Below are positions 9,487-36,849 of a DNA stretch of 64,000 nt, one piece after another. The stretch is from Streptomyces sp. NBC_00457 (GTDB lineage Bacteria > Actinomycetota > Actinomycetes > Streptomycetales > Streptomycetaceae). The stretch spans positions 4,464,001 to 4,528,000 of the forward strand of contig NZ_CP107905.1 in NCBI RefSeq assembly GCF_036014015.1, given 5' to 3'. The stretch's first letter is position 1, and each line of letters starts with the position of its first letter. The translations under genes and the position numbers were made by a program. Below the pieces are notes generated by a model that saw only the letters and a program-made list of their open reading frames with translations, was not told the DNA's origin and did not search any database.

Positions 9487-10977
9487 GTGAACGAACGTCA
9501 CCCGTCGGGGATCATCACCTCCCCGGCTCCGGCTTCCGATGCCTCGGCGCCCTACGCGCCGTACGGCGGACAGGAAGCCCACTACGGTGACTTCACCACG
9601 TACGACGCCTACGCGGCGAACGGTATTCCCGCGGGCGCGGCGGGCCTGGACACCGGTGCCTACGCCACCCCGACCTTCGACGCCGACCCGCTCTTCGGCA
9701 GCATGCCCGGCGAGAACACGGGCTCGTACGACGGCACTCAGTGGTCGACGGGCAGTCACCAGACGCTGAACTACGACGTGTACGCGGCCCAGCACCACGC
9801 GGCCTACGACACCGGCGCGTACGACACCACCGCCTGGACCGACGGCCACCAGCCGCTCTCCGTCATCCCGCCGCAGTCCACCGGCCCCGAGGCCACCGGC
9901 CAGTGGGATTCGGGTACTTGGCTGCAGCCCGAGCAGCCTGAGCACTCCGGCGCGGCGGACCAGACCCAGCAGTGGGGCTGGGGCACGCAGACCTTCGACA
10001 CCGGCGCGTACGACGCCACGCAGTGGAACTCGGACGGCGCCCAGCACCCGGCCGACGAGTACGAGCAAGTCTCGTACGACGAACTCGCCCAGGGCGAGGG
10101 CGGGTTGGACCACACGAGCCTCACCGGCTCGACCGGCGAGCAGCCCGCCGTAACACCCCTGCTCGACGACCAGGAAGAGCAGGAAGAGGCCGTCTCGCCG
10201 ACCCCTGCGCCCGGCTCACGCGCGGCCGCGCGTGGCGCGGGGCGCTCCCGTCGCCGTACGCCCGCCAAGCGCTCCGCGCTGCTGACGGTCGCCGTGCCGT
10301 CGGCGTGTGTGATGGGTGTCGCGGGCATCGCCGCCGCGTCCGTCGGCACACTGACCGACGACGGCGGCGACACGTCGACGACCGCGGCGGACACGAAGTC
10401 CGTCAAGCCGTCCGCCGCGAACAACAAGCTGGACACCCAGCTCGAGAGCCTCACCGCCGGTGCCGACGACTTCGCCGACCGGGCCAGCCGTACGCAGGAG
10501 CGCATCGACCTCAAGGCCCAGCAGGAGGCCGAGAAGAAGAAGGCGGCGGCGGCGGCGGCCCGCAAGGAGCGGCTGCGTCCGAAGTACGCCCTGCCGGTCG
10601 CCCGGCACGGGCTCAGCGCCTACTTCGGCCAGTCCGGCATCAACTGGATGTCCATCCACACCGGCATCGACTTCCCGGTCTCGTACGGCACGCCGGTGAT
10701 GGCCGCGACCGACGGCACCGTCCGCACGGAGTGGAACAGCTCCTACGGCAACATGATGATCGTGACCGACAAGGACGGTACGGAGACGTGGTACTGCCAC
10801 CTCTCCACGTACGCCGTCTCGTCCGGTACGACCGTGAAAGCCGGCGACACGATCGCGTACTCCGGCAACTCCGGCAACTCGACCGGCCCGCACCTGCACT
10901 TCGAGGTGAAGCCGTCCGGTGGCTCCGCCATAGACCCGCTGGCCTGGCTGCGCAGCCACGGGCTGGACCCGACGTAA
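9487..10977 (+). CDS. M23 family metallopeptidase (LytM type), membrane-anchored
   Basis: 496 residues. The first ~230 residues are low complexity and repeat units like DTGAYD and TQW (YDTGAYDTTAW, FDTGAYDATQW). A transmembrane or signal-anchor segment lies near 263-285, then a coiled coil near 325-355 (ERIDLKAQQEAEKKKAAAAA), then an M23 domain with HTGIDF near 390 and HLHFE near 469, the zinc-ligand motifs (HxxxD and HxH). Such enzymes cleave peptidoglycan cross-bridges outside the membrane. The start GTG 9487 is inferred from the family start and a weak GAGAGAGAAG site upstream. The repetitive cytoplasmic N-terminus is unusual for this enzyme class but typical of Streptomyces orthologues. 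Confidence 0.9.
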   Translation: MNERHPSGIITSPAPASDASAPYAPYGGQEAHYGDFTTYDAYAANGIPAGAAGLDTGAYATPTFDADPLFGSMPGENTGSYDGTQWSTGSHQTLNYDVYAAQHHAAYDTGAYDTTAWTDGHQPLSVIPPQSTGPEATGQWDSGTWLQPEQPEHSGAADQTQQWGWGTQTFDTGAYDATQWNSDGAQHPADEYEQVSYDELAQGEGGLDHTSLTGSTGEQPAVTPLLDDQEEQEEAVSPTPAPGSRAAARGAGRSRRRTPAKRSALLTVAVPSACVMGVAGIAAASVGTLTDDGGDTSTTAADTKSVKPSAANNKLDTQLESLTAGADDFADRASRTQERIDLKAQQEAEKKKAAAAAARKERLRPKYALPVARHGLSAYFGQSGINWMSIHTGIDFPVSYGTPVMAATDGTVRTEWNSSYGNMMIVTDKDGTETWYCHLSTYAVSSGTTVKAGDTIAYSGNSGNSTGPHLHFEVKPSGGSAIDPLAWLRSHGLDPT

Positions 10978-19158: not shown

Positions 19159-19192
19159 ACCGCGGCTCCCTGCTACCGCCCCCGTCCGTGGA

Positions 19193-19486
19193 TCAGACCA
19201 GCCGCCGTGCCGTCGCCCACCGGGTCAGCTCGTGCCGGTTGGACAGCTGGAGCTTCCTCAGCACCGCGGAGACATGGGACTCGACCGTCTTCACGGAGAT
19301 GAACAGCTGCTTGGCGATCTCCTTGTAGGCATAGCCACGGGCGATCAGACGCAGCACCTCGCGCTCGCGCTGGGTGAGGCGGTCGAGGTCCTCGTCCACG
19401 GGCGGGGCGTCCGTCGAGGCGAAGGCGTCCAGAACGAACCCGGCGAGCCTCGGCGAGAAGACCGCGTCGCCTTCCTGCACACGGAA
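19193..19486 (-). pseudogene. Truncated LuxR-type response regulator (3' end only); left flanking repeat
   Basis: 294 bp identical to the 3' end of the complete response regulator at 36556-36849 except for one base (G at 19232, A at 36595). It encodes the last 98 residues: linker plus the whole GerE helix-turn-helix (DRLTQREREVLRLIARGYAY and onward). The receiver domain is missing. The reading frame continues upstream without a stop to a TTG at 19600, so a free-standing 135-residue DNA-binding domain with a foreign N-terminus could be made as read-through from the hsdR-ygjP operon. It is a scar of the island insertion. Confidence 0.9.
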
Positions 19487-20401: not shown

Positions 20402-23400
20402 CTACCGCTCCCGCCTCAGCGCACGGAACGCCGAGGCGTGCCTCTGCGCGTGCCCCGTCAGTGATTCGGACAGGTCACGCAACGGCTTCCTGTCACGCTC
20501 CCTCGGCTTCAGACCGGCATCTCGCAGCTGGCGCCAGATGGCGCTCTGCAGCTCGTCCAGGCTCGACTCGGTACCCGACCAGGCGGCGCTGGCGACGTGC
20601 CGGGAGATGAGCGAGGTGAGATCGATCGTCAGCTGCCGCAAGAAGTCCTGTCCGGGCTGGTCGAAGGCTTGATCCTCGGCCAGCCGCTCCGACAGCTTCG
20701 TGTACAGCTGCTGCTCCACCGAGCTGAGATCGGCAACGGCTGGATCGGCCTGCTCCGCCTTCCTGGCCCGGTCGATCATCGGGCCGATACGTACCTTGAT
20801 TTCGTCCCAGCGGCCGTCGAACTCCTCAAGGATCTTCTCCAGCTCCTCGGCCAGCGTGCGGTAGACGGGCCGGTCCTCCTTCTCCCGGCGTTCTTCGAGG
20901 TGATAGCGGAGCGCCTGAACCTGCTCCGCCGCCGACTCCTCCACGTCGGAGATCCGCCCCACGGCCTCGTCGAAGTCCGGAGCGAGGATCGACACAGGCG
21001 CGATCACCTGCTGGATCTCCGGCAGCTCCAGGTGATCGGCGACCATGGCCCGCACCTTCCGGCCGTACGCCCTCATGGAGAACTCACCGCCCGCCGCATC
21101 CCGGTAGTGCCTGCGCACACGCTTCTGCAAGAGCGCCCAGCGCCGGGCATTCGGCACCTGCTCCAGGGCCCCCTGATGGGGCAGCACACGCTCCAGCGCG
21201 TCGAAGAATTCGGCGAGCTTCTCGTCAAACACGGCGCGTGCGTCCTCGTCGCCCAGGGCGCGCATACCGCCCGTGATGCCCGCGGGCGAGTCGAGGCCGC
21301 TGATTCCCCTGTCGGCAAGGAACCGCTCGACTTCCCCGGCAGCGTTGCGCAGGTCCGGGATCTCGCTCGCGAGGCTCCGCACCGTACGGAGGGTGGGGCC
21401 GTCGCCCTTGTAGGCGGGCAGCGTGACCGCGAGGTCGTTCAATACGCCGTAGTAGTCCACGACGCGCCCCTCGTGCTTGCCCTGGCGAGGCCGGTTCACG
21501 CGGGCGATGGCCTGGAGCAGTTCGGCGTCCTGGATCGGCCTGTCGAGGTAGAGGGCCTGCTCGATCGGGGCGTCGAACCCGGTCAGAAGCATGGACTTCA
21601 CGATGAGGAAGGCGATCGGCGGCTGTTCCGCCTCGCTCCATGGGTTCGCGTCCGACGCGGATGCCGTCCTTCGGGGCGGCCGTGCGCTGCTCCAGGGATT
21701 CGCGCCGGACGCGGCGGACGGGGGCGCCGGCTCGCTCCAGGGATTCATTCTGATAGCGCCGCCACCCACGGGGTCGGGCTCAGGCACATGCTCGATCACC
21801 CACGGGTTGTCCGGGGGCAGCTCCGGGAAGGGCTCCAGGAACCGCTCGATGTGCTCCTGCTGCCGCACCGGATCGGTCCACTCCCGCCACAGTCCCTGCT
21901 TCTGCTCGCTGCCCGCCGAGATGACCGGTACGAAGTCGATGCGCCGCAGCAGCTCCTGGTACTGCCAGGCCCGCAGCAGCACGAGTTCGTCCCACGAATA
22001 GTCCTTCAGGTCCTTGTGCCGCAGGGTTGCTGGATCGAACTCCCTGACCCGTTCCAGCAGCTCGGCCCGCGCGTCGTTCAGCATGTGCCGGTAGAGCACC
22101 ACCGCGTGTCGACTGACGGCCGCCACCTGTGCCTTGAAGCCGCCGGTCAGCGGCCCGGTGACGTAGTGCTCCAGCATGTCCATGGCCTTGCGGCGGATCA
22201 GTGGCAGGGACTCGGCGACATCGCGGCTGGTGGGCTTCAGCCCGTTGCGGAACTTGTCTTTGTCCTCTTCCCGCAGCCCGGCGACGAGGTCGTCGAACTT
22301 GGCGTTGAGGTCGTCCTTCTCCTTCACCTCGGCCGACCCCGTACGCCCCTCGTACCGGACGGGCACGACGACCTTGTCCCGCTCCGCCTCGTCCATCAGG
22401 TAGGAGTCGAGGAACTTGTCGTCCGGCTCAAGCCCGAAGATCCGTCCGGTGTCGGTCAGCCGGCCCTTCATGATCGGCGTGCCGGTGAACCCGATCCGCG
22501 CGGCATTCGGAACGGCATCCCGCAGGCACGCGTGCAGCACGGAGGTGTGCGACCGGTGTGCCTCGTCGACGAGCACCAGCACATGCGTCGACGTACTGCA
22601 CTCCGTGAACTGGCGTCGTACCTCCTCGACGGCCGCCGCGTCCGGGGTCGGGTCGGCGGCGGCTTCCGCGTCACCGCCCTCGTCGAGGCGGACCTGCGCC
22701 GCCGCGAACTCGGCTGCCGGGTCCCGGTCGTCGTCGGCGGCCGTCTCCCCCACGACACCGGGGATCCGCCCGAGAAACTTCTGGATCATCGTGAAGATGA
22801 CCGCACGCCCGCCCGGTTTCCCGGCCCGCTTCAGCATCCCTTCCGCGTCGGCCTGGGACTTCGCGATCCGTACGGGGCTGCCGCTGATCCGCACCGCGGC
22901 CGAGAGCTGCTGCTCCAACTGCTTGCGGTCGGTCACGACGAGGATGGTGAACCGATTCAGCCGCGGATCCCGGCTCGTGTGCAGCCTCCGGGCGAGGAAC
23001 GCCATCGTGAGGCTCTTGCCGGACCCCTGGGTGTGCCAGATGACACCGCCGCGCTCGTCGACCTCGGCGGCGGGGTCCTCGGGGGTGCGCCCGGTCCGCA
23101 GCTTGTGCACGATCTTCTCGACGGCCCGGTACTGCTGGTGCCGGCAGACCGTCTTGACGGTGACCGGCGGCTCGCCCTCCCTCGTCTTGACGGGAAGCTC
23201 GAAGACGTAGTGCCGCATGATGTTGAGCAGGTTCCGCGGCTTGAGGACGATGGCGACGAGCCTGTGCTGATCGGTGAGTTCCTGCCCCTCCCCCAACAGC
23301 CTCCGCTTGCCGTCCGCCCTCCTGGTCTTCTGCAGAGCGCGGGCCAGCGCCTCGTCGTCCTTGTAGTCCGGCGTCACACTGCGCCAGGCGGCGAAGTGCT

Positions 23401-24136
23401 CCTCGCTCGACGTGATCGTGCCGAGCGCGGCGTCGCTCCCGCTAGCCGCGACCAGCAGCTGCACGGACGCGAACAACTCGGGCACGCCGCCCGGCCGTTC
23501 ATGGGGTTCGCGTGTGTCGTCGTCGAGCGGCACACCGGCATAGGCGCGCAGATCCCGGATCGCCGAGCCGACGGGGTCCTGCCGGTCCGGGCTCTTGCAC
23601 TCGATGACGGCGACGGGAATCCCATTGACGAACAGGACAAGGTCGAGAACGACCTCCACCCCGTCGACCGTTCGCACCCTCAGTTGATCGACGACGAGGT
23701 ACTCGTTCCTCCGCAGGATCTCGTCGTCGCTGAGCCCCTCCAACTCCCAGTCGACGTACTGGACATGAACGGTCTTGCCCTGGTGATGAACTTCGTGCCC
23801 GGTGGCCGGGGTTCCGCTCAGCAGCAGGCTCGTCACATCGCTGTTGACGTCCTTTAGCTTCTCCGTGGCGACATTGCGGGCCGTCCGCCACAGCGCTGCC
23901 ACGGCGCTGCCGACATCGGCCGTGTCCATCCAGGCCTCGCCGGTGCCCGTGACACGGTTGAGCCGCCGGATGGCCGAGCTGAGGCGTTTGACGAGCAGTA
24001 CGTCACTGTAGCCGCGGTCATCATCGCCGTCCGGATCGGCGAGATCAGGCCCGTGGACGTGCTTCCACCCCATCGACGTCAGCTGGTCGATGATCGGCTG
24101 CTCGACCTCGTCCAGCTCGACGGTGCCCCGTGCCAT
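20402..24136 (-). CDS. hsdR: Type I restriction enzyme R subunit (HsdR)
   Basis: About 1244 residues. A PD-(D/E)xK nuclease lies near residues 160-182 (DLVLFVNGIPVAVIECKS), Walker A HTQGSGKSLT near 368, DEAH-box VDEAHRSH near 522, and GFTGTP motif III near 545. The C-terminus is the helical HsdM-binding region. It is the motor and nuclease that translocates and cuts DNA unmodified by HsdM-HsdS. An unusual insert near residues 795-835 repeats A/MNPWS three times within Pro/Ala/Ser-rich sequence inside the second helicase lobe, just before the FLIVKSMLLTGFDAP motif. I prefer ATG 24136 (MARGTVELDE, AAGGG upstream); an in-frame GTG at 24160 is possible. It is separated from hsdM-hsdS by the WhiJ-like module. 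Confidence 0.95.
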   Translation of the reverse strand: MARGTVELDEVEQPIIDQLTSMGWKHVHGPDLADPDGDDDRGYSDVLLVKRLSSAIRRLNRVTGTGEAWMDTADVGSAVAALWRTARNVATEKLKDVNSDVTSLLLSGTPATGHEVHHQGKTVHVQYVDWELEGLSDDEILRRNEYLVVDQLRVRTVDGVEVVLDLVLFVNGIPVAVIECKSPDRQDPVGSAIRDLRAYAGVPLDDDTREPHERPGGVPELFASVQLLVAASGSDAALGTITSSEEHFAAWRSVTPDYKDDEALARALQKTRRADGKRRLLGEGQELTDQHRLVAIVLKPRNLLNIMRHYVFELPVKTREGEPPVTVKTVCRHQQYRAVEKIVHKLRTGRTPEDPAAEVDERGGVIWHTQGSGKSLTMAFLARRLHTSRDPRLNRFTILVVTDRKQLEQQLSAAVRISGSPVRIAKSQADAEGMLKRAGKPGGRAVIFTMIQKFLGRIPGVVGETAADDDRDPAAEFAAAQVRLDEGGDAEAAADPTPDAAAVEEVRRQFTECSTSTHVLVLVDEAHRSHTSVLHACLRDAVPNAARIGFTGTPIMKGRLTDTGRIFGLEPDDKFLDSYLMDEAERDKVVVPVRYEGRTGSAEVKEKDDLNAKFDDLVAGLREEDKDKFRNGLKPTSRDVAESLPLIRRKAMDMLEHYVTGPLTGGFKAQVAAVSRHAVVLYRHMLNDARAELLERVREFDPATLRHKDLKDYSWDELVLLRAWQYQELLRRIDFVPVISAGSEQKQGLWREWTDPVRQQEHIERFLEPFPELPPDNPWVIEHVPEPDPVGGGAIRMNPWSEPAPPSAASGANPWSSARPPRRTASASDANPWSEAEQPPIAFLIVKSMLLTGFDAPIEQALYLDRPIQDAELLQAIARVNRPRQGKHEGRVVDYYGVLNDLAVTLPAYKGDGPTLRTVRSLASEIPDLRNAAGEVERFLADRGISGLDSPAGITGGMRALGDEDARAVFDEKLAEFFDALERVLPHQGALEQVPNARRWALLQKRVRRHYRDAAGGEFSMRAYGRKVRAMVADHLELPEIQQVIAPVSILAPDFDEAVGRISDVEESAAEQVQALRYHLEERREKEDRPVYRTLAEELEKILEEFDGRWDEIKVRIGPMIDRARKAEQADPAVADLSSVEQQLYTKLSERLAEDQAFDQPGQDFLRQLTIDLTSLISRHVASAAWSGTESSLDELQSAIWRQLRDAGLKPRERDRKPLRDLSESLTGHAQRHASAFRALRRER
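21634..21752 (-). repeat. Three NPWS-coding repeats within hsdR
   Basis: Codons for M/A-Asn-Pro-Trp-Ser recur about every 45-54 bp (near 21740, 21695 and 21640), separated by Pro/Ala/Ser/Arg-rich sequence. The first two copies share GCTCCAGGGATTC (plus strand) and the third has GCTCCATGGGTTC. They lie in an insertion in the helicase core and may be an expanded tandem repeat. Confidence 0.75.
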
Positions 24137-24249
24137 GTACTCGCGCCCTTCCCCGTTCACACTACGTCCCGGCTGATGGTCCTGGCCGTTGTTCTATTTT
24201 GCGGCAGGTGAGGCGAAGGGGAGGGCGGAGTCGGACAGTTCAGGCGAGT

Positions 24250-25509: not shown

Positions 25510-25755
25510 TCAGGCTCCGGCGGCGTACGCGACGAACGAGGTCCAGGCGTCAGCGGGGACGGCGAAGCGGGGGCTTCGAGCGCCGAGCTTCGAGTTGCGG
25601 ACGTGGATGGTGCGGGGGCAGGCGGCGACTTCTACACAGGCGTCTTCGAAGTCGCTACTGTGGCTGGACTTGCGCCAGGTGTAGGCGACTTCGAGGCACG
25701 CGCTGCCCGAGGAGTCGCTGTAGCTCGACTTGAACCACGTCAGTTCGGCGCTCAT
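25510..25755 (-). CDS. DUF397 domain protein
   Basis: 81 residues with two DUF397 core motifs: WFKSSYSDSSGSACLEVAY and WRKSSHSSDFEDACVEVA, followed by VRNSKLGARSPRFAVPADAW. These small proteins accompany XRE-DUF5753 regulators across Streptomyces and are thought to antagonise or modulate them, as for whiJ and abaA loci. Its ATG overlaps the stop of the DUF5753 frame (ATGA at 25752-25755), so it was translationally coupled to it. The duplicated motif in one short protein is common but not universal. Confidence 0.9.
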   Translation of the reverse strand: MSAELTWFKSSYSDSSGSACLEVAYTWRKSSHSSDFEDACVEVAACPRTIHVRNSKLGARSPRFAVPADAWTSFVAYAAGA

Positions 25756-26563
25756 AGCTCCTCCGCCAACTTCCTGATGAACCGGGCAGACCCCTCAACG
25801 CTAAGCGCCTGCATGCGGATCATGCCATGCCGTTGCATGAGGGTGCTGAGTTTGTCCCCGCTGCCGTACAGCGCACCCGTCTCCTGACCGTCGGCAAATG
25901 CGTACTGCTCGTGATCGGTCGTCTCCACCAACACGATAGGACCGCTGAGCGCTGCCGCTGGAGCACCACTGAATGGCAACACCTGGATCGAGACGTTGCG
26001 CTGCTGCCCCACTTCCAGGAGCCGCTCAAGCTGTCGCCGCATCACGCCTTCACTACCGACCACAGCACGCAGCGCGGCCTCGTGAAGTACGAAGCTGCAC
26101 AACGCGAGCGGCTTACTGGTCAGCTTCTCCTGCCGTCTGAGCCTGGCAGCAACTCGCTCGGCCACTGTCTCCGCGTCAAGCGGCGGGCAATCATTGCCGA
26201 TCAACTCCTGTGCGTACTCCCCGGTCTGCAGCAGCCCTGGAATCAGCATCGGCTCGTACCACTGCACTGTGATTGCCTCGGCCTCGATCGCCATGTACTC
26301 CTGGGACCGCGCCGGGAAGGGTTCAGGAACTCCTGCCCAGCCAACAACTTCCCTCGCGCCCCGCACATCTGATCCGCGACCTGCAACAGCCCCAGCGTCG
26401 GCCGCCGCCTCCCGCACTCCATGGACTTGACGTACTCGTAGTCATAGCCGGCCTCGTCGGCGAGCCGCTGCCGACTGACACCCGACTCCTCGCGCCACAG
26501 CTTGATCTGACCTCCGCAGTACCGCCAGTTCTGCTGCGCCTGCTGGGACTCCCCCGTGGCCAC
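25752..26563 (-). pseudogene. XRE family regulator with DUF5753, frameshifted
   Basis: The first frame gives an XRE helix-turn-helix (LWREESGVSRQRLADEAGYD, then YVKSMECGRRRPTLGLLQVA); the second gives the DUF5753 ligand-type domain (ITVQWYEPMLIPGLLQTGEY, GVMRRQLERLLEVGQQRNVS). They belong to one protein but lie in different frames. The break is near 26318-26330, between LLAGQE and PEPFPARSQEYM. One extra G in the GAGTT stretch would restore LLAGQEVPEPFPARSQEYM, so a single-base deletion is the simplest cause. The start GTG 26563 has GGGAGG upstream. The order XRE-DUF5753, DUF397, divergent RsbW-like ATPase is the WhiJ-like module. A sequencing error cannot be excluded. Confidence 0.8.
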
Positions 26564-27508: not shown

Positions 27509-28717
27509 CTACACGGCGCCCGGCACACGCACCCTTCCAGACAACAAGTCATCGACCAACCCTTGCCTGACCGTACGGAGCTTTGCCAGCCTTAGATCTT
27601 CCTGTTCAAGTCGCTGGTCAAAGCTACTTACAGCAATTAGAAGCTGCTCCTGATCCTGAATGGAAAGAGCAGGCAGAGAGATCGCCTGAATCGATCGGCC
27701 GGAAATCTTCACCATACTCTCAGAGGTCCCCTGAGCGAGAGCACGGATCTGTCGCCTAGCGCACTGCGACCTAAGAACCACCTCTAGAGCTTCAGCGCTC
27801 CAGCCTTCAGCCGGGGTAAGGCGCATCATCAAATCGGGATAGATAGATGGGGTGCCACTGCCTCGATATACCCCTGCGAGGCCGACTAGGTCCCTCGTGT
27901 TCGCTCGGCTCATTAGGAGATCTCCATCACGGAGCATGGCGTAATGGCCGGGCATGACCGTCGGAGGAGCGTTCTTCAACTGCCGAGGCGCAAAGCCGTC
28001 CGATGTCAGGCATCCCAGCCCGAGCACCTGCACCCCGGTCCACTCCTGCGTCGCTGTGGGCGAGTATCCATTCCGAGGTGCGCCACTGAGTACTTCTCCC
28101 AATGACACGCCCCACACACTGCGTGACAGCAACGCTTCAACTACACCCGCGCGCGTTGCGCGCAGTTTCGTGATCGACTCTTCCATGAGTCGCTCTTCCG
28201 CAGACGATGCCGCGATCATCTCAACGATGTACTGCTGCTCCGCGAGAGATCGCACAGGGAAGAGAAGCTTCGCGAACCGATCCCCTCCTAGATGCGCAAT
28301 ACTTGTAGTCTTCTTGGCGATCGACGCGAACACACCTGTACTCAGCCACCGACTAAAAACAGCCTGCGCATACTCAGGAAGAACCAGACCACCAGCCCGA
28401 AACCGCACAATCGTGTTCTGAAAGCAGAATGCCGCTGCAGGCCCCCGATAGATGGCACTACGCCCGACGAGTTCGAGACTCTGCCCCTCATTCAGCAGAA
28501 TATCTCCTGGCTGCAGCGCATACGCCTCGCGTTCGCTCTGCGTAAAGCCCATCAACTTGACGTCGGAATAGTCGATACGGCCGTCAAGCACATTCGCGAC
28601 CCTCAGATAGGGAAACTGCTCACCGTTGGCCCGACTCGACGGCGAAAGCTGCTTCCCCATGCGCACATCACCGACCTCGCCCACAGGGAGCCAGCGAATC
28701 GAGTCCTCAGCCGACAT
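27509..28717 (-). CDS. hsdS: Type I restriction enzyme specificity subunit (HsdS)
   Basis: 402 residues with two half-repeats, each a target-recognition domain plus a helical spacer. TRD1 spans about residues 5-180 (GKQLSPSSRANGEQFPYLRV and onward), the spacer is near 180-205 (EERLMEESITKLRATRAGVV), TRD2 about 206-375, and the second spacer is near the end (QEDLRLAKLRTVRQGLVDDL). The protein defines the bipartite DNA site for HsdM and HsdR. The start ATG 28717 has AAGGAG 7 nt upstream and overlaps the hsdM stop by 11 nt; a TTG two codons earlier is less likely. Its G+C content looks lower than the surrounding genes, as expected for swapped specificity subunits. Confidence 0.93.
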   Translation of the reverse strand: MSAEDSIRWLPVGEVGDVRMGKQLSPSSRANGEQFPYLRVANVLDGRIDYSDVKLMGFTQSEREAYALQPGDILLNEGQSLELVGRSAIYRGPAAAFCFQNTIVRFRAGGLVLPEYAQAVFSRWLSTGVFASIAKKTTSIAHLGGDRFAKLLFPVRSLAEQQYIVEMIAASSAEERLMEESITKLRATRAGVVEALLSRSVWGVSLGEVLSGAPRNGYSPTATQEWTGVQVLGLGCLTSDGFAPRQLKNAPPTVMPGHYAMLRDGDLLMSRANTRDLVGLAGVYRGSGTPSIYPDLMMRLTPAEGWSAEALEVVLRSQCARRQIRALAQGTSESMVKISGRSIQAISLPALSIQDQEQLLIAVSSFDQRLEQEDLRLAKLRTVRQGLVDDLLSGRVRVPGAV

Positions 28718-31514
28718 ACCCAAGCTCCTTCAGGAACCCGTCCAACGCCTGCGCAGCTTCCAGCCGCCGACCCTCGATATCCCGCAAGGAAACGGCGTAC
28801 TTCCCCTCCCAAACCCGATACGCCTCAGCCAACTCCCGCTGCCGACGCACCACATGCCCGCCCAGCTTCCCCGCCAGGTCATCCCGCAGAATCCCGAGCA
28901 CCACGTCCCGCTCCCCCGCAGCCTCGGCCAGCTTCTTCCTCGCCCGGATGAGGCGCGCCACCTTCACGGCGCCGCCCTCACCAGGGCCATCACCGTCAGC
29001 GCCGTTCTCCGCATCCGTACCCTCAACCGGACTCGGAACCGGAATTTCCAACAACGCCCCCTGCCCAGCCTCCTCCGCAGCCAGAGCCCGCCGCCCCTTG
29101 GTGGTACCCCCAGCCCTCGAACGACCGCCCCCCACCTTCTTCTTGGCCTTCTCCCGCTGCTCGGCCTTCTTCCGCTGGACTGCCGCGACCGGCCAGAAGT
29201 CGTCCTCCAGCTCCTCGATGGCCTTCTTCGCCTCGGACCGCTGCTTCGTCAGCTCCCGCATCTCGGCCTTGCTGAGCACCGCCTCGATCAACGCCGGGTC
29301 GATCTCGGCAGACCCCTCCGAGTCGGCGTCCGGTGACTCCGCCGCGGCCCGGGCCTCCTCCAGCGCGGCCTCGGCCTCCTGCGCGGCCTTCACCTTGGCG
29401 TCCAGGTCCGCGTGGGTGCGCTCCGCGGCGGCCAGGTCGTCCAGGAAGTCGGGCGCGATGGCCGCGACGACCTTGTGGTCGTAGGCCTGCCGCCGCTCCG
29501 CCGCCGTACGGTCGCGTGCTCCGCCCGTGCGCGGGTCGGGCTCGGGGGCGAGCATGGTCAGGACGGTCTCGACCCAGCCGTCGACGACGCCGCCGAAGCC
29601 GTTGACCGACAGGGCCTTGAGGTCGTTCTTGGCTTCGTGCCACCAACCGGCGACCGCGCCCGCCAGCGCGTACCGATCCAGGACGCCGACCGCGAGCAGG
29701 CTTTGCCGGAAAGAGTCGATCAAGTCGGCGCGCAGACGGGCGAGTTGGGCCTTACGTTCGTGCTCCGTGCGTTCGTCGCCCTCGATGGGCTCCAGGTTCG
29801 CGATCTGGTCGGCCTCTGCCTTCCACCACTCCTCGAAGGCGGTCCAGAGCTTCTGCTCCCGCCCGCTCGCCAGCTCGGCCAGGCGGGACGCGTCCGGTCG
29901 TTCGCCCTCGGGCAGGAAGTCGACGTACTCAGGATCGTCGGCCCGTATGTCGAACAGGTCCTGAACCTTGATCTCGTACGCGTCGAGGAGTTCCTTCTTC
30001 GCCTCGATCTCGGCGACCGGGACACCGCCCATCAGGTGGGCCCGTACGTCCTGCGGCTCGGCCGGCGGGGTGTTGTCGACGTAGCGGCGGATGTTGAGGT
30101 TGTAGCCGTTCTCCGCCAGGTCGTCGCGCCCGACCGCGCGTGCGAAGCCCTCTACGTCCTCGAAGGTCTCGTCGTCCTGGAACGCGCGGAAGGTGGAGAC
30201 GATCTTCTCGATGTGCTCGGGGAGCAGGACGTTCTGGGCGCGCTCCGCGTGGAACTCGCGGCCCGCGTTGATGAACAGCACCTGGTTACGGCGGTCCGGG
30301 CGCCTCTGCGCCGGCGGGCGCAGCGCGATCACGCACGCCGGGATGCCCGTCCCGTAGAAGAGGTTCGGCGCGAGTCCGATGACCGCTTCGATGAGGTCAG
30401 CCTTCAGGAGGTTGGCGCGGATCTTCTGTTCCTCGCCGCCGCGGAAGAGTACGCCGTGCGGCATGACGGTGAAGACGGAGCCGTCCCGCTGCTTCACCAT
30501 GTCCAGCATGTGCTGGAGGAACATCAGGTCGGCTTTGCCGCGCTCGGAGGTCTGGCCGTGCGGCATGCGGCTCAGCAGGTTCGGTACCTCGGACTGTTTG
30601 TAGTCCATGGAGAAGGGCGGGTTGCTGAGCACCAGGTCGAAGTCGCGCTCGGGGTGGAGTGGGTTGGTGAGCGTGTCGCCCGTTCTGAGGGAGAAGTGCT
30701 TGGCCCCGTGGAAAAGCATGTTCATCGTGGCCATGACCCAGGAGCCACTGTTGGCGTCCTGTCCGGCCAGCCTCAGGTCCTTGGAGTCCTCGCCGTGCTC
30801 GTCGACGTACTCCATAGCGTGGATCAGCATGCCTCCGGAGCCCACACACGGGTCGTAGATCCGCATGCCGCCGTGCGGGCGCGCCAGCTCGACCATCATG
30901 CGGACCACCGCACGCGGGGTGTAGAACTCGCCGCCCTTGCTGCCTGCCGTGTCCGCGAAGTCCTTGATCAGATACTCGTACGCGGCGCCGATCATGTCGG
31001 GGAACTCGAAGTCCTCGCCACGCAGCCGGATGCTGCCGAAGTGCTCGATGAGCGACCGGAGCCGGTTGTCGGCCAGGGCGGCGGCTGAGCCCTTGCCGCT
31101 GCCTCCGCCGCCGATGCGGTTGAAGTTGACGTGGGCGAACAGGCCACGCAGTTCGCTGTTGCCCTTCTGGCGCTCCAGCGCGTCGAGGGCGGGCTGGAGG
31201 TACTCCGTGGCGACGTCGTCGACGGCCCCGGCCAGCTTCTCCCAGCGGGCCTCCTCAGGCACGAAGATGACTCCGCGCGGGCCGTACCACTCGTACTGCT
31301 CTGCCTCGTCCTTCGCGTCCTCGGGGCTGTCGCCGGCCTCCAGTCGCTCCTTGATGATCGCTTGCTGGGCGGCCTCGAACTCGTCGTTCACCCGCTTGAG
31401 GAAGAGGAGTACGAAGATGAAGTCGCGGTACTCAGCGGCGTCCATCGTGCCGCGCAGGATGTCCGCCGCCGCGAAGAGATGGCGTTCCAATTGCGCGAGC
31501 GTGAGCTTGGCCAC
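28707..31514 (-). CDS. hsdM: Type I N6-adenine DNA methyltransferase (HsdM), long form
   Basis: About 935 residues, nearly twice a classical HsdM. The N-terminal helical domain (LERHLFAAADILRGTMDAAE) is followed by the methyltransferase: motif I DPCVGSGGML near residue 221 binds S-adenosylmethionine, and motif IV LSNPPF near 296 is the catalytic NPPF. The C-terminal half (about 500-935) is charged and coiled-coil rich (HADLDAKVKAAQEAEAALEE). It protects self DNA by adenine methylation with HsdS. I prefer GTG 31514 (VAKLTLAQ, GGAG 8 nt upstream) over GTG 31523. It overlaps hsdS and lies 160 bp after the paralogous MTase-like gene. Confidence 0.94.
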   Translation of the reverse strand: MAKLTLAQLERHLFAAADILRGTMDAAEYRDFIFVLLFLKRVNDEFEAAQQAIIKERLEAGDSPEDAKDEAEQYEWYGPRGVIFVPEEARWEKLAGAVDDVATEYLQPALDALERQKGNSELRGLFAHVNFNRIGGGGSGKGSAAALADNRLRSLIEHFGSIRLRGEDFEFPDMIGAAYEYLIKDFADTAGSKGGEFYTPRAVVRMMVELARPHGGMRIYDPCVGSGGMLIHAMEYVDEHGEDSKDLRLAGQDANSGSWVMATMNMLFHGAKHFSLRTGDTLTNPLHPERDFDLVLSNPPFSMDYKQSEVPNLLSRMPHGQTSERGKADLMFLQHMLDMVKQRDGSVFTVMPHGVLFRGGEEQKIRANLLKADLIEAVIGLAPNLFYGTGIPACVIALRPPAQRRPDRRNQVLFINAGREFHAERAQNVLLPEHIEKIVSTFRAFQDDETFEDVEGFARAVGRDDLAENGYNLNIRRYVDNTPPAEPQDVRAHLMGGVPVAEIEAKKELLDAYEIKVQDLFDIRADDPEYVDFLPEGERPDASRLAELASGREQKLWTAFEEWWKAEADQIANLEPIEGDERTEHERKAQLARLRADLIDSFRQSLLAVGVLDRYALAGAVAGWWHEAKNDLKALSVNGFGGVVDGWVETVLTMLAPEPDPRTGGARDRTAAERRQAYDHKVVAAIAPDFLDDLAAAERTHADLDAKVKAAQEAEAALEEARAAAESPDADSEGSAEIDPALIEAVLSKAEMRELTKQRSEAKKAIEELEDDFWPVAAVQRKKAEQREKAKKKVGGGRSRAGGTTKGRRALAAEEAGQGALLEIPVPSPVEGTDAENGADGDGPGEGGAVKVARLIRARKKLAEAAGERDVVLGILRDDLAGKLGGHVVRRQRELAEAYRVWEGKYAVSLRDIEGRRLEAAQALDGFLKELGYVG

Positions 31515-31675
31515 GTACGGCACTCCCTGTGGTGACTGGCTTGTCCGGCTGCATCGGGAAGCCTACGGCTTCTCACGAGTCAGGGATCACCACATCCCAT
31601 CAAGAGCACATTGTGAGCGGATGTGCCTTTCCGTAATCACGAGATTCTTGCTTCCGTACGTCAACCGGCACCAGG

Positions 31676-34507
31676 TCAGCTCACAAAACCGACCGAGGTC
31701 CGGTCGGATTCCAGGTCCTTCATCATGGTCCGCTTGATCAGGTCGATCTTGGCCAGCTGAGCGTGCCGCAGTTCACGCTGCTCGGCGAGTGCGGTCACCG
31801 CATCCACGATGCGCTGCTGTTCCTCAAGACCCGGCAGTTCGATCTCCACGTTCAGCAGTCGGCCGGCAGGCAGGTCGTACAGCTCGTCGCGGCTCTCACG
31901 CGCCTGAGCATAGAGACGGGGGTGTACCGAGCGGTGTGAGAGCCAGGCCGCCAGATATCCCGGCAGGACGCGGGTGGCGTCCGGCAGGAGCCTGAGGACG
32001 CTTCCGCCGTATGTGGCGTTGGGAAGCTGCTCATTCCAGACGATCGCACGGTATCCCCGGGCTGCCGTGACACGAGCCGTCAGCAGAACGTCGCCGACTG
32101 TCAGGATCTCCGAGAGTCTGGGAGGGGAGTCCGCACGCCGGTAACGGAGCCCGGCCGCCACGAAGCCGCGCTCGGTGAGGTGACGAGCCTCCACTGCGGG
32201 GACACCGTTGGGCTCCTCACTCAGGCGACCGGATGTTCCGGTCCTGGCGGTCTTGATGACCTCTCCGAGGGTGCGGCGATCAACTCGGCCGTCGGTCTCG
32301 GACGCGGCGTCGAGCACCGGTAGCAGAATCATCAACTCGTCCACGTCCAACTTGGCCAGGGCCCCTTCGACAGTCTTCTCCGTGTCTGTCAGGGCATGGA
32401 CCCGCTGTGCGGTCTGGCGCCGTCTGTCCGCCACATCCGCGCCGGCCAGGGAGGAGAGATCCCACGCGCTCTGCTGGGACCACGGGTTGTTCTGGAGGAA
32501 GCTGGCGCTCGGGCCGGTCAGCTGGGACTCGATCTCACGGAACGACAGCCCGTACTTCTCCTGCCACCTCTCGTACGTGTCGACAAGCTCCCTTCGCCTC
32601 GACGCGACCAGGGCATCGAGCCTGCTCGTCAGACCTTCCCGAAGCGCGGACAGGTCCTCCTCCGGCGGCAGCGGACAGCCCCGTCGCGCCAGGGTCCTGA
32701 GATGGGGGCCGACCTCACGCCACCAGTCCGTGAACGCCCCGGAGAGGGAATACGGAGCCAGGATGCTCGACGCTCCCATCAACTCGGCGTAGGCCTTGAG
32801 TAGTTGGCGCTTCACGAGACCCGTCCGGTTGTTGGACGTCTCAGCTCCGCTCTGGGCTGGTGCAAGCCCTGCGATGTGCCTCTGTGCCAGCCCCCACCAC
32901 TGATCAAAGGCGGCGAGCAGGCGCTGCTCGCTGTCTCGGGCCAGTTCTGTCAGCGTTCGGGGGTCCGGCCGCTCGGGCGGCGGCAGGAAATCCATGTAGG
33001 CCGGATCTCCGTATCGCGCGGTGAAGAGCTGGCGTGGCGCGATTCCGTAGGCTCCCAGCAGCGCTTCTTTGTCATTGATCTCGGCTACCGGCATTCCACC
33101 GCTCAGGTGGGCCTGTATGTCCTGCGGTTCCGGTAGCGGGGCGCTGTCAACGTACCTGCGGATATTGAGACTGTCGTCATTCTCGGAGAGATACGACCGG
33201 TCCACGACCCGAGCGAAACGGCGGACATCTGCGAAACCTCGAACTGCGGAAGCGATCTTCTCGATGTGTTCCGATCGCATCAGGTTCTGCGCGAGCCCAC
33301 GTTCGTATTCACGAGAGGCATCGATAAACAGCACCTTGCCGCGCCGTTCCGCCGTCTTTTGCCCGGGAGCACGCAGGAGCAGCACGCAGGGCGCGATTGC
33401 CGTCGACGAGAAGAGGTTCGGCGCGAGACCGATGACAGCCTCGACCACGTCAGCGTCCAGCAGTGCCGTGCGCGTGGCCTGGTCTCGCCCGCCACGGAAC
33501 AGTGGACCGTGCGTAACCACCGTGCAGACCGATCCCCCACGCCGGGTCACCAGTCCGAGCATGTACTGGAGAAAACCCCAGTCCGCCGGGCCCCTTTCGG
33601 AAACCGGTCCGTACCGTGCGTACTGTCCCACCGCCTGTGCCTGGTCCGCCCGAAGGGACAGGCCGAACGGCGGCACACTGAGAACGAGGTCGAACTCACC
33701 TGACTCCGACGGAGCCGACAACAGGGAATCACCGCGCTCAACGGCAGGGTCCTGGATCTGGTGAAAGTACAGGTTCAGGCTGGCGAGTTCGGCGGTCGAG
33801 GCGTCGATGTCCTGCCCGGCGAGCGCTGGCGGTGGGGCATCCCTCCCCTGCTCATCCACGTACTGCTTGGCGTGCAGAAGCATGCCCCCCGTTCCGCAGA
33901 AGGGGTCATAGATCCGCATGCCAGCCTGCGGCTGGGCGACTTCAGTCAGCAAGTGGACCAACTCGCGAGGTGTGTAGTGCTCTCCCGAGTGGCGCATCGA
34001 CGCCTCAGTCGCCTTGAGGAAGGACTCCATGGCGTCGCCGAGCATCTCGGGATAAGCAAGAGCTGCGAAGTCGAGTCGCACTCCGCGGATTGCCTCGATC
34101 AATCTCTCTTGAGCCGCGTCATCCATCCGTCCGACGGCGGCGGCCGCCCGTCGAAGGAGTCCGGCGATCAGCGGAGGACGATCGCTCTCCTCGCCGGTCG
34201 CGCCCAGCACCCGAAGTGCCTGGTCTTCCAGCATGCGAGGCAGAGCACCGCCCGCGCCCGTCCCCCTAGCCCCGGTGATGCGGCGCCGGGATTCAGCCCA
34301 TCGCTCCTGGTCGAACTCATCGAGCGCGTGCTGCGAGAAGAGCATGGCGAGGACCACGTCTGGCCGGTCCCGATGATCACTGACAATGCGGGGCACCGCT
34401 TCCATGGCGTTACGGAGAGCGCGCTCCACGTCATTCGGCACAGTGAAGTTCAAAGCCACGCTCCCCGCCGTCTCTCGCTTCTCCCACAGCGCGGCGCCCT
34501 CCGCCAC
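31676..34507 (-). CDS. HsdM-like protein with degenerate catalytic motif, fused to half an HsdS
   Basis: 943 residues. The N-terminal domain (about 25-150) is unlike HsdM; the methyltransferase core has motif I DPFCGTGGML near 195, but motif IV reads LSVPPF near 277 where active enzymes have N/D-PP-Y/F. The middle is clearly paralogous to the neighbouring hsdM (LNIRRYVDSAPLPEPQDIQA versus LNIRRYVDNTPPAEPQDVRA). Residues about 735-930 resemble one HsdS target-recognition half (GDVLLTARVTAARGYRAIVW, then PGLEEQQRIVDAVTALAE). Val in place of Asn should abolish base methylation while leaving cofactor and DNA binding possible, so I infer a DNA sensor or specificity protein. GTG 34507 lies 17 bp after the rloB stop, in one operon with the AAA ATPase and RloB. 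Confidence 0.85.
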   Translation of the reverse strand: MAEGAALWEKRETAGSVALNFTVPNDVERALRNAMEAVPRIVSDHRDRPDVVLAMLFSQHALDEFDQERWAESRRRITGARGTGAGGALPRMLEDQALRVLGATGEESDRPPLIAGLLRRAAAAVGRMDDAAQERLIEAIRGVRLDFAALAYPEMLGDAMESFLKATEASMRHSGEHYTPRELVHLLTEVAQPQAGMRIYDPFCGTGGMLLHAKQYVDEQGRDAPPPALAGQDIDASTAELASLNLYFHQIQDPAVERGDSLLSAPSESGEFDLVLSVPPFGLSLRADQAQAVGQYARYGPVSERGPADWGFLQYMLGLVTRRGGSVCTVVTHGPLFRGGRDQATRTALLDADVVEAVIGLAPNLFSSTAIAPCVLLLRAPGQKTAERRGKVLFIDASREYERGLAQNLMRSEHIEKIASAVRGFADVRRFARVVDRSYLSENDDSLNIRRYVDSAPLPEPQDIQAHLSGGMPVAEINDKEALLGAYGIAPRQLFTARYGDPAYMDFLPPPERPDPRTLTELARDSEQRLLAAFDQWWGLAQRHIAGLAPAQSGAETSNNRTGLVKRQLLKAYAELMGASSILAPYSLSGAFTDWWREVGPHLRTLARRGCPLPPEEDLSALREGLTSRLDALVASRRRELVDTYERWQEKYGLSFREIESQLTGPSASFLQNNPWSQQSAWDLSSLAGADVADRRRQTAQRVHALTDTEKTVEGALAKLDVDELMILLPVLDAASETDGRVDRRTLGEVIKTARTGTSGRLSEEPNGVPAVEARHLTERGFVAAGLRYRRADSPPRLSEILTVGDVLLTARVTAARGYRAIVWNEQLPNATYGGSVLRLLPDATRVLPGYLAAWLSHRSVHPRLYAQARESRDELYDLPAGRLLNVEIELPGLEEQQRIVDAVTALAEQRELRHAQLAKIDLIKRTMMKDLESDRTSVGFVS

Positions 34508-34524
34508 GCTCGAAGACAGTTGGC

Positions 34525-35241
34525 TCAGTAGTCGACCACGTCCAGGCCTTCCTCAACGAAGCGCCAGACGTCGGTATACGGGTCCCAGCGGTTCTGGTCA
34601 GAGCCGGTGTGCACGGAGTTGATCTGCTGCGCGTACTGGCGAGCCTTCTTGTAGTTGCGCGCCAGCTGCCCCGATTTGATCCGCTTGGCGTCCTCCGGAG
34701 AGACAGCCCGGCCATTGGGGCCGTATGTCTGGAGAAAGCCGGGCTGCCGCTTGAGGCGGGCGGCGACATCGTCGCAGACACCGCCGAAGGTGCTCGTGTA
34801 GTTCTGATAGTGGAGCAGGCGCCACAGCTCGAAACAGGGGTGAGAGTAGGCGACGTGCACCCCTGCCTTCTTCGCCCGTGAAAAGGCCGTGGGGATGTCC
34901 TTGTGCTGATCCCGGTCGAACAGACACCAGACCTGAGGCCAGTTCCAGTCCTCGGGTTTCAGGCCGGCCTTCTTGGCGGCCTTCTGCACTTCGACCAGCT
35001 TGTCGATGGCGTCTTCCACGAGAGGCAGGGGCTTGCGGCGGCTCGACGAAACTGCGGCGTTCTCGATGGAGTGATTGATCCTGCGCCCCTGCTGCGCGCG
35101 GGTCCCGTGCCCCATCACGTACTCGACGAACTCCGGCTCGGTGACCTCGCCCTCCGTGAAGACGTACACCTCACGAGGCCGGTCACCGGCTCGTGGCTTC
35201 TTGCCGCGGCTTATGCCGTCCCGCCCCTTGACCCTCGCCAT
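34525..35241 (-). CDS. rloB: RloB family protein (TOPRIM-like)
   Basis: 238 residues. VFTEGEVTEPEFVEY near residues 27-41 and WCLFDRDQHKDI near 104-116 are the acidic motifs of the RloB/TOPRIM-like fold (Glu in the first strand, DxD later), followed by SHPCFELWRLLHY near 133-145. RloB was named from genes lying in restriction loci and pairs with RloA-type AAA ATPases; related ATPase-TOPRIM pairs (such as AriA-AriB of PARIS, or the domains of OLD/Gabija proteins) are anti-phage nucleases or toxins. Its ATG overlaps the ATPase TGA by one base (TGATG), so the two are translationally coupled. The enzymatic activity is inferred. Confidence 0.9.
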   Translation of the reverse strand: MARVKGRDGISRGKKPRAGDRPREVYVFTEGEVTEPEFVEYVMGHGTRAQQGRRINHSIENAAVSSSRRKPLPLVEDAIDKLVEVQKAAKKAGLKPEDWNWPQVWCLFDRDQHKDIPTAFSRAKKAGVHVAYSHPCFELWRLLHYQNYTSTFGGVCDDVAARLKRQPGFLQTYGPNGRAVSPEDAKRIKSGQLARNYKKARQYAQQINSVHTGSDQNRWDPYTDVWRFVEEGLDVVDY

Positions 35242-36494
35242 CAGGAACGCTCTGCCTCCCCTGCCAGTGCTGTCAGCACCCTGCGGCCGATTTGCCCTTG
35301 AGTCACACGCGGGACCGCGCCGAAGGCGCCCGCGAGGTAGGAGTCACTCAGGTCTTCTTCAGGCCCAGGGTCGACATCGCTGAGCGGATACAGCTCCGTG
35401 GCTCCGCTGTCGTCCTTCTCCGTCAGCCAGACCTGCCCGGATTCCAGTGGGCGACCGCCCCTTGGGCTCTTGAGCAGCGACGGGTCGTGCGAGGTGAAGA
35501 CGAGCTGTGCGCCCTTGGTGTTGACCCACGGAGCTTGGAAGAGCCGAACGACTTCGGCCGCGAAACGAGGGTGGAGGCTGGCATCCAGTTCATCGATGAG
35601 CAGGACAGCGCCTCGGTCCAGCGCCAGCAGCAGAGGTCCGATCAGCGCGAACCAAGAACGCGTGCCGAACGACTCGCGCTGCCAGTCGAAGGCGACAGGC
35701 TCACCGGTGTCGCTTCCGTGGAGAAGACGAACCCGTGGGCTCTGTCCCGGCTGTTGCTCCACTTCGGCGCCTCTGATGCCGAGATCGGCTACCCGGAGCA
35801 GTTCCTCGATACGGTCACGGGACGTCTCGTTCAGAAGCTCACGAGCCGTGAAGGCTTCGCGCTGACTGCGCTCGGTCTCCGGGGTGATATCCCATAGGTT
35901 CTGGTTGAACCAGGTGTAGATCTGGGTGAGTTGAGGGTGGTTGTCGTTGGCGGCTCTGCTGAGCAAGAGGGCGTTGGGGCGCGTCGTACGGGCCAGGAGG
36001 GCACGGTCCTGGATGCGGTCGCCCGGGAAGTCGAAGACGTTGCCGCGCGTGGCGTCGCGATCCAGCCACACCTGACGCCGACCCTTGGGGTACGAATGCA
36101 GCCACTCGGACTCCACCCTCGTCGAGCCGAGCTCGAACCCGTAAGTCCACCGAACTCCGTCTTCCAGGACGAAGTCGACTTCGTAGAAGGTGCTTTCGGT
36201 GGCCGACTTGGGGTCGAGTGCGAACTCCTCCCTAGGGATACCCTGGTAGGACGTCCACCCCCCATACGACCCGAGGACAGCTTCCTTCATCTTCATGAGG
36301 GCCGTGATGACGTTCGACTTGCCTGATGCGTTGGCGCCGAAAATGCCGAGAACCGGGTAGACCCGGAGCGTCTTTCCATCGGAGAGCGTCAGCTTGCGCG
36401 CCGCGTCCGATTCATCGCCCTGCGGGACCACGAAGGACAGCTCTTGCTCGTCCCGCAGCGATCGCACATTCGCCGCGCGGAATCTCAGCAGCAT
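35241..36494 (-). CDS. AAA15/RloA-type SMC-like ATPase
   Basis: 417 residues with ABC/SMC-type ATPase motifs: the N-terminal LLRFRAANVRSLRDEQELSF, Walker A GIFGANASGKSN near 51-62, ABC-like signature ESFGTRSW near 272, Walker B GAVLLIDELDASLH near 290-303, and the His switch VFTSHD near 330. This is the AAA15/AAA21 (RloA-like) class, which senses infection in several defence systems and activates a partner effector. ATG 36494 has AGGAGG 5-6 nt upstream. It is the first gene of the operon with rloB and the MTase-like protein, and begins only about 60 bp from the island's right edge. Confidence 0.93.
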   Translation of the reverse strand: MLLRFRAANVRSLRDEQELSFVVPQGDESDAARKLTLSDGKTLRVYPVLGIFGANASGKSNVITALMKMKEAVLGSYGGWTSYQGIPREEFALDPKSATESTFYEVDFVLEDGVRWTYGFELGSTRVESEWLHSYPKGRRQVWLDRDATRGNVFDFPGDRIQDRALLARTTRPNALLLSRAANDNHPQLTQIYTWFNQNLWDITPETERSQREAFTARELLNETSRDRIEELLRVADLGIRGAEVEQQPGQSPRVRLLHGSDTGEPVAFDWQRESFGTRSWFALIGPLLLALDRGAVLLIDELDASLHPRFAAEVVRLFQAPWVNTKGAQLVFTSHDPSLLKSPRGGRPLESGQVWLTEKDDSGATELYPLSDVDPGPEEDLSDSYLAGAFGAVPRVTQGQIGRRVLTALAGEAERS

Positions 36495-36555
36495 GCCGCC
36501 CTCCTCTCGTCGCGCACAGAGTAACCGGGTGATCGCTCACGCAGCTACCGGATGG

Positions 36556-36849
36556 TCAGACCAGCCGCCGTGCCGTCGCCCACCGGGTCAGCTCATGCCG
36601 GTTGGACAGCTGGAGCTTCCTCAGCACCGCGGAGACATGGGACTCGACCGTCTTCACGGAGATGAACAGCTGCTTGGCGATCTCCTTGTAGGCATAGCCA
36701 CGGGCGATCAGACGCAGCACCTCGCGCTCGCGCTGGGTGAGGCGGTCGAGGTCCTCGTCCACGGGCGGGGCGTCCGTCGAGGCGAAGGCGTCCAGAACGA
36801 ACCCGGCGAGCCTCGGCGAGAAGACCGCGTCGCCTTCCTGCACACGGAA
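36556..36849 (-). repeat. Right flanking direct repeat of the island
   Basis: The 3' 294 bp of the response regulator gene, matching 19193-19486 with one mismatch. The orientation is the same in both copies. Confidence 0.93.

Follow-up and report, generated by a model that had tools for sequence, protein, structure and literature searches.

The pair of an ATPase and an RloB protein is itself already known, and rloA-rloB in type I restriction-modification loci is in print. In Campylobacter type I loci, rloA and rloB overlap slightly within the restriction-modification island and were described as having "no inferred function" (PMC2928727). RloB has also been described as a member of type I operons and under the name AbiLii, a protein of the AbiL system (PMC10440598); AbiL is first dated 1999 by a reference cited there. 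Published accounts present AbiL, PARIS and PrrC as systems that abort infection or block translation. Ocr triggers PARIS, whose TOPRIM protein AriB cuts tRNA, not DNA. PrrC is kept silent by its own Hsd complex and is released by an anti-restriction peptide. Further literature was drawn on (PMC12707154, PMC12839542, PMC3506569, PMC3510504). In the present analysis, a related locus was examined in a 64,000-nucleotide stretch, called the window, of Streptomyces sp. NBC_00457 (GCF_036014015.1, contig NZ_CP107905.1, positions 4,464,001 to 4,528,000). The source genome is 10.8 Mb in one contig, and its nearest relatives are Streptomyces. In this locus the ATPase-RloB pair is followed by a fusion of a type I modification subunit (HsdM, or M) with one half of a specificity subunit (HsdS, or S). 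Such fusions are abbreviated MS, and this one, which seems to be catalytically dead, is called pMS.

The window combines both arrangements that RloB-linked methyltransferases mostly adopt: ATPase-RloB-MS, with the dead MS, lies directly before hsdM-hsdS...hsdR. On the explanation that we favour, at a rough probability of 0.4, an AbiL-type (RloA/RloB) pair of ATPase and nuclease is coupled in this locus with a type I methyltransferase, and the dead MS protein would serve as a sensor or decoy trigger. The main features are as follows (aa, amino acids; values after profile names are E-values unless given in bits).

35241..36494, minus strand: ATPase, AbiLi/RloA-like (AAA_21), 417 aa; Pfam PF13304 3e-38, PADLOC AbiLi 1.2e-85, AriA 5.1e-38
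34525..35241, minus strand: RloB/AbiLii-like protein, 238 aa, with TOPRIM-like acidic residues E30, D109, D111 and E138; PF13707 7.1e-31, PADLOC AbiLii 5.4e-23
31676..34507, minus strand: pMS, putatively dead M-half-S fusion, 943 aa from the first GTG; N6_Mtase 6.9e-67, motif IV Asn missing in 15/15 family members
33140..34048, minus strand: N6_Mtase domain of pMS, residues 154-456 (profile match)
33665..33676, minus strand: motif IV of pMS, VPPF instead of NPPF, residues 278-281 (sequence and family alignment)
31706..32278, minus strand: single target-recognition half of pMS and conserved C-terminal helix, residues 744-934 (PADLOC Specificity_I, phrog_2668 at 744-934, conserved columns)
28707..31523, minus strand: HsdM, NPPF intact, 938 aa; N6_Mtase 1.4e-91, HsdM_N 7.7e-22
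27509..28723, minus strand: HsdS, 404 aa; two specificity stretches in several PADLOC models
20402..24160, minus strand: HsdR, 1252 aa; TIGR00348 340.9 bits (cut-off 284.55), HSDR_N, SWI2_SNF2

The PADLOC AbiLi match extends over residues 1-405 of the ATPase, and the RloB-family partner is encoded directly downstream. Because AbiLi and AbiLii are the best matches, the pair is AbiL by profile. An earlier note on this DNA, made from the sequence alone, had put the three genes forward as a candidate new defence operon; the pair within it is not new. The same note had assigned the ATPase to AAA15. The AAA_15 score of 31.6 bits is just under the cut-off of 32.1 bits, and the protein belongs instead with AAA_21. 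The AriA match covers the same span as AAA_21 and is far weaker than AbiLi. At E 0.001 the RloB protein matched only Pfam RloB and PADLOC AbiLii, with no match to an AriB-type TOPRIM partner. Of its acidic residues, E30, D111 and E138 are invariant in 58 sequences, and D109 is kept in at least 90%. A search of PDB sequences with an RloB profile gave no relative (best E 0.15).

The three genes were rightly described in the note as tightly linked on one strand: the ATPase stop and the RloB start share one base (TGATG). The gene order of the locus recurs in Streptomyces lanatus (locus L001; hsdM and hsdS broken) and in genome G104 (L011; pMS broken), and S. dysideae (L002) has ATPase-RloB-pMS as far as the contig end. 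Since these loci share the order, the three-gene arrangement is not due to chance. The gap of 17 bp between RloB and pMS holds if the first GTG is the start of pMS, but the 14 other family members start 16-18 alignment columns later. If pMS starts like its homologues, the gap may in fact measure about 65 bp and the protein about 927 aa.

In pMS, the catalytic NPPF is VPPF, as the note had recognised, while the S-adenosylmethionine-binding motif I (DPFCGTGG) is intact in the window and invariant in 15/15 members. PADLOC models for type I specificity proteins match its C-terminal part at residues 697-933 (1.7e-15), which agrees with the single HsdS-type half noted before; the Pfam Methylase_S match is weak (E=0.006). 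The protein is 45% identical to the neighbouring HsdM over residues 128-610, and the two are paralogues. HsdM_N is present in the neighbouring HsdM and was detected in 0/15 pMS members at E 0.01. Measured against active HsdM, therefore, pMS shares motif I and lacks both NPPF/NPPY and a detectable HsdM_N. A protein-collection search gave 53 relatives among 8000 candidates scored. The 14 nearest homologues (47-94% identity, with 86-98% of the query covered) group with pMS in one clade (Shimodaira-Hasegawa-like approximate likelihood ratio test, SH-aLRT, 100; quick tree). At the position of the motif IV Asn this clade has V in 10, A in 4 and R in 1 members, and Asn in 0/15. In the second pocket motif (GGEF/AGEF), His replaces Phe in 11/15. 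In PacII, a type I methyltransferase, the pocket motifs are AGEF/NPPF for N6-methyladenine (m6A) and AAEF/NPPY for N4-methylcytosine (m4C), and the M1 double mutation N276A/F279A impairs both activities (PMC9613975). Judged by its residues, pMS should not methylate, and it seems to represent a 15-member Streptomyces clade of pseudo-methyltransferases with one target recognition domain (TRD), new here. Full-length frames are seen in all 14 listed homologues, the most distant being about 47% identical, although a protein search is biased towards intact frames.

A second group of M-S fusions without the Asn is found on the tree (P0042 V, P0043 V, P0045 A, P0044 H; support 90, with a long-branch warning). 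Another protein, P0039, has H at this position and sits among NPPF fusions outside the pMS clade. P0039, the ATPase P0194 and the RloB P0067 are each listed on a contig of 23,078 nt, which is a proxy for linkage.

RloB occurs in 80/392 Streptomyces genomes and pMS (threshold 1e-150) in 3/392, the source genome being included in both counts. In 3/3 of these carriers pMS directly follows RloB, and with L002 the adjacency is seen in all four readable loci, so that the linkage of pMS to ATPase-RloB expected in the note is found elsewhere. An ATPase relative lies on a contig of equal size for 6/14 homologues (P0011-P0015, P0019), and RloB as well for three; this proxy rests on the best 120 of 259 and the best 120 of 5282 listed matches. 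Furthermore, a search anchored on the methyltransferase (1e-150, two candidates scored per genome) gave 15 matches in 13/395 genomes from 86 genera, all of them in Streptomyces. Fourteen of the 15 (12/13 genomes) are within RloB loci, and the fifteenth (G198) starts near a contig end; two of the 15 are pMS and the others M or MS. No pMS was found outside Streptomyces in these 395 genomes. The genome searches for further carriers drew largely overlapping genome sets. Among plasmid records, 0/2181 with a match cover 80% of pMS, and in the stretches examined of viral loci (best 80 of 100) no RloB or ATPase match was seen at 1e-6. A plasmid or phage origin of pMS was dropped on these negatives.

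The association extends beyond pMS. The 92 RloB match rows comprise 80 loci that were read, three pMS loci and nine left out (fragments, contig ends, a gene piece, lower-listed rows). Among the 80, ATPase-RloB-M-S-R is found in 27, and ATPase-RloB-MS, whose M carries a single fused HsdS half, in 13. Three have M or M,S without visible R (L101 at a contig end, L102 decayed, L105 with N gaps), and 37 have no nearby methyltransferase gene (L080 has small HsdS and HsdR pieces). On the ATPase tree, the linked pairs are all in one clade of 56 rows, 47 of them linked (SH-aLRT 99, quick tree). Of the 37 loci without a methyltransferase gene (L042-L063 and others), 28 are outside this clade. Among 33 RloB loci outside Streptomyces, L238 alone has ATPase-RloB-M-S-R; in L253 RloB is followed by an HsdM piece, and in L241 such a piece is found 7 kb upstream, at the locus edge.

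In the RloB-linked loci other than pMS, the motif IV Asn is kept in 41/41 readable methyltransferase domains and the full NPPF in 40/41. GGEF is present in 40/41, the remaining reading being probably a pattern mis-hit. The linked pair in Streptomyces is therefore normally accompanied by an active-looking methyltransferase, and the dead pMS form is derived. The note had regarded NPPF in homologues beside rloB as evidence against its idea; this is what the wider association has, while the pMS branch itself has lost the Asn throughout. The exception to NPPF is the MS protein of L107, with NPSF; it lies at the same chromosomal site as the window locus.

The fused and the separate forms differ in HsdR. 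Ten of the 13 MS loci gave no match to HsdR, two (L081, L098) have a fragment and one (L104) has HsdR; the locus ends about 1 kb past MS in L092 and about 2.8 kb past it in L091. HsdR is present in 27/28 loci with separate M and S versus 1/12 fused loci (Fisher p = 6e-8; the loci are not independent). In this count L092, L101 and L102 were excluded, fragments were taken as absence and L105 as lacking R. On the methyltransferase tree the fused state changes nine times. Among seven independent pairs on supported branches (L092, L101, L102 and L105 left out), six differ in the same direction and one shows no difference (p = 0.031). Of the 13 genomes that carry the fused form, nine gave no hit to this HsdR anywhere at 1e-20, a search that could miss other HsdR families; the four controls (G000, G379, G340, G387) were all recovered. 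M+S+R versus an HsdR-less M-half-S fusion thus appears, from the sequences, to be a repeated switch among RloB-linked methyltransferases. Three-gene ATPase-RloB-MS arrangements with no full hsdR nearby are seen in L076, L082, L088, L089, L091, L093, L097, L100 and L107, and in L081, which has the hsdR fragment. The HsdR-less cassettes occur in several gene neighbourhoods and are possibly an unreported methylation-linked defence system. It should be mentioned that most loci were found via RloB, so that retention of ATPase-RloB after HsdR loss is not measurable from them; the methyltransferase-anchored search is the sole check in the reverse direction.

The response regulator and kinase genes that adjoin the window locus recur beside the fused MS of L003 (on the contig of L098) and L107, and beside the M-S-R loci L001, L011, L075, L095 and L111, grouped with or without pMS. 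L003 keeps counterparts of the small genes together with short hsdR and YgjP-like pieces. Because these remain, its fused form seems to be derived from an M-S-R locus.

The recognition half of pMS is 21% and 26% identical to the two halves of the neighbouring HsdS. Between the window and G104, the ATPase is 97% identical, the pMS TRD 95% and HsdM 96%, versus 61% for HsdS. The pMS TRD does not track the specificity changes of HsdS, so pMS is unlikely to read the site of the neighbouring restriction-modification system; a target shared with HsdS was dropped for these reasons. With the methyltransferase part as clock (70-80% identity), the median TRD identity is 80% for pMS (27 pairs) versus 49% for active fusions (23 pairs), 10/32 active fusions being left out. 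With the ATPase as clock (90-95%; 10 pMS and 13 active fusions, none dropped), whole separate HsdS proteins, at 50% (9 pairs), are far lower than the TRDs of either kind of fusion.

Against L001, L002 and L011, the ratio of nonsynonymous to synonymous substitution rates (dN/dS) is 0.07-0.08 for the ATPase, 0.19-0.28 for RloB and 0.20-0.24 for the pMS TRD. For the methyltransferase part of pMS it is 0.24 (L001), 0.19 (L002) and 0.44 (L011, frameshifted), and for the N-terminal 111 codons 0.39-0.47 (L001, L002). HsdM gave 0.05 (L001, first 298 codons) and 0.16 (L011), and HsdR 0.10 in both. pMS is under purifying selection, looser than that on the active methyltransferase.

On the favoured explanation, the ATPase and RloB would form a silent complex and the MS protein would be its trigger. 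The neighbouring HsdM-HsdS can supply methylation, so that in the pMS branch the partner might have become a pure sensor or decoy. The dead MS appears to retain what this would require, namely its S-adenosylmethionine-binding motif, its recognition half and its C-terminal helix, the last being the part through which HsdS halves pair. pMS might bind DNA, or else one of the anti-restriction proteins with which phages mimic DNA and attack type I methyltransferases. Such binding would release RloB to cut nucleic acid, leading to abortive infection, akin to the guarding of restriction systems by PARIS and PrrC. PacII is bound by Ocr and ArdA (PMC9613975), and M-half-S fusions made by engineering form dimers, methylate and, given HsdR, can restrict (PMC6158711). 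Together with the triggers of PrrC and PARIS, these reports lead us to infer that the methyltransferase protein is the sensing partner of ATPase-RloB. The common part across the lineage is the methyltransferase protein, not its methylation and not HsdR. No trigger of AbiL is described in the parts of the literature consulted, and this lineage makes the trigger directly testable.

Several observations weigh against this explanation. ATPase-RloB can stand alone, because 9/56 rows in the linked clade have no adjoining methyltransferase gene. The pocket Phe is retained in 4/15 pMS proteins, and the TRD of pMS is poorly modelled (predicted local distance difference test mostly <50). With the ATPase as clock, TRD identity is 77% in pMS versus 74% in active fusions (19 and 3 pairs). 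TRD freeze as a mark of dead fusions is thus weak by this clock, and it was not used for the decoy reading. The methyltransferase part of pMS evolves faster than HsdM (0.19-0.44 vs 0.05-0.16), as a relaxed relic would. In G104, pMS is frameshifted at motif I (a sequencing error is possible) while hsdM, hsdS and hsdR are open, so pMS seems dispensable there.

The last two points would be expected if pMS were a decaying relic of an earlier ATPase-RloB-MS cassette, with ATPase-RloB and M-S-R doing all the work, and the raised N-terminal dN/dS fits as well. The full-length frames of the 14 listed homologues, even allowing for a search that favours them, do not suit a relic, nor do the dN/dS of about 0.2 over most of the two open copies and the conservation of motif I and the TRD. 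Replacement of the Asn by V or A in 14/15 is also unlike random decay, and a relic is considered rather unlikely. The paralogy of pMS with HsdM and their place in the same gene run might instead indicate a silent second modification subunit of the type I neighbour, one that would join HsdM and either alter its specificity or lower its activity, ATPase-RloB being uninvolved. Type I enzymes with two M proteins do exist, and PacII (PMC9613975) gives the best structural matches of pMS. However, pMS has no detectable HsdM_N, carries its own recognition half, does not change with HsdS, and lies close behind RloB but 152 bp ahead of hsdM. Furthermore, in S. lanatus hsdM has a frameshift shortly ahead of motif IV and hsdS is likewise broken (12955-16993 of L001; a sequencing error is possible), yet the ATPase, RloB, pMS and the examined part of hsdR are open. 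A silent subunit is therefore held to be unlikely.

It is also conceivable that ATPase-RloB is a restriction effector replacing HsdR, with the MS protein reading sequence and methylation state and passing on unmodified DNA; the dead form would then read without writing. This extends the model of the note, in which the third protein would recognise DNA sequence or methylation state and signal through the ATPase to RloB. The lack of a full HsdR in 11/12 fused loci (two with a fragment), versus 0-1/28 separate ones, speaks for this, as do the six of seven independent pairs, the 9/13 genomes without this HsdR, and the dimerisation and methylation by engineered M-half-S fusions (PMC6158711). These same engineered fusions remain able to restrict with HsdR, and HsdR loss is thus not accounted for by fusion on its own. 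The mark on self DNA in pMS loci would have to come from an HsdS with different domains that changes independently, most loci were found through RloB, and in PARIS the TOPRIM protein cuts tRNA, not DNA. This replacement is regarded as quite doubtful. A related proposal, that ATPase-RloB-MS is a defence system of its own in which the AbiL pair replaces HsdR, and that pMS is a decoy that baits anti-restriction proteins and fires the AbiL nuclease, is rather unlikely but merits attention. Decoys are known in plant immunity, and a decoy methyltransferase, if true, would be their bacterial counterpart. Finally, pMS could still methylate, with a changed chemistry or another target base. Its motif I is intact, and m4C subunits vary in motif IV (NPPY), but they keep the Asn (PMC9613975), which the pMS clade has lost in 15/15, in addition to the pocket Phe in 11/15; such activity is very improbable.

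The gene order on the minus strand is ATPase, RloB, pMS, hsdM, hsdS, small genes, hsdR and a YgjP-like metallopeptidase gene. The type I system adjoining pMS is complete and paralogous, as the note had indicated, with HsdM (NPPF), HsdS and HsdR all detected. Three small genes, of which one has DUF5753, lie between hsdS and hsdR, together with a gene on the opposite strand. A scan for sigma-70-type promoters and terminators gave no signal above chance. The remaining features are given below.

25752..26417, minus strand: DUF5753 gene within the locus, also present in L001, L003, L011, L075 and L111
19576..20373, minus strand: YgjP-like metallopeptidase gene at the far end of the locus; PF01863 3.7e-45
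36553..36849, no strand: direct repeat copy 1, 3' end of a LuxR-type response regulator gene; 298 columns, 99.3% identity to copy 2
19189..19486, no strand: direct repeat copy 2, opposite end of the island (alignment with copy 1)

This repeat brackets a 17 kb block from the ATPase gene to the YgjP-like gene. The second copy was absent from the examined stretches of L001, L003, L011, L107, L111, L075, L095 and L219-L222. Because these relatives showed a single copy, the repeat that bounds the block may be the trace of a recent insertion. In L064, a lone ATPase-RloB at this response regulator gene is flanked by an exact 24 bp direct repeat (7740-7763, 9832-9855), which sits at the 3' end of that gene; the arrangement resembles a small mobile cassette.

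No description of ATPase-RloB with an M-S fusion, of the HsdR-less cassette or of the dead methyltransferase branch was found in the open-licence literature searched; the earlier note likewise knew of no described system with this third component. MADS is a defence system that joins methyltransferase and specificity-type proteins to ATPases. The window proteins give only profile matches to it, far below the curated cut-offs: for MAD2, 41.7 (pMS) and 62.9 (HsdM) vs 720 bits, and for MAD5, 24.1 (HsdS) vs 400. PacII_M1M2S, with two different M proteins per enzyme, is the best fold match of pMS. Both PacII subunits keep the motif IV Asn (NPPF, NPPY), whereas the window has NPPF and VPPF, not the PacII-type combination of one NPPF and one NPPY subunit. 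The engineered fusions of HsdM with half HsdS (SauSTORF499P) and of HsdM with HsdS (EcoKI) have the same domain order as the MS proteins. They are active methyltransferases and restrict when HsdR is supplied, whereas the natural MS proteins are mostly without HsdR and follow ATPase-RloB.

AbiL of Lactococcus (AbiLi/AbiLii) and rloA-rloB of Campylobacter have the ATPase followed by the RloB-family protein, as in the window; in the parts of those descriptions consulted, there is no methyltransferase-specificity fusion, dead or active, as a third component. PARIS (AriA-AriB) also joins an ATPase to a TOPRIM nuclease and guards restriction systems. It differs in that the partner here is RloB (PF13707), not of AriB type, and the AriA profile is far below AbiLi. 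PrrC, from type IC loci, is similarly a defence gene embedded among hsd genes, a translation-blocking toxin silenced by Hsd; it is a single protein, whereas two proteins and a putatively dead methyltransferase are combined in the window.

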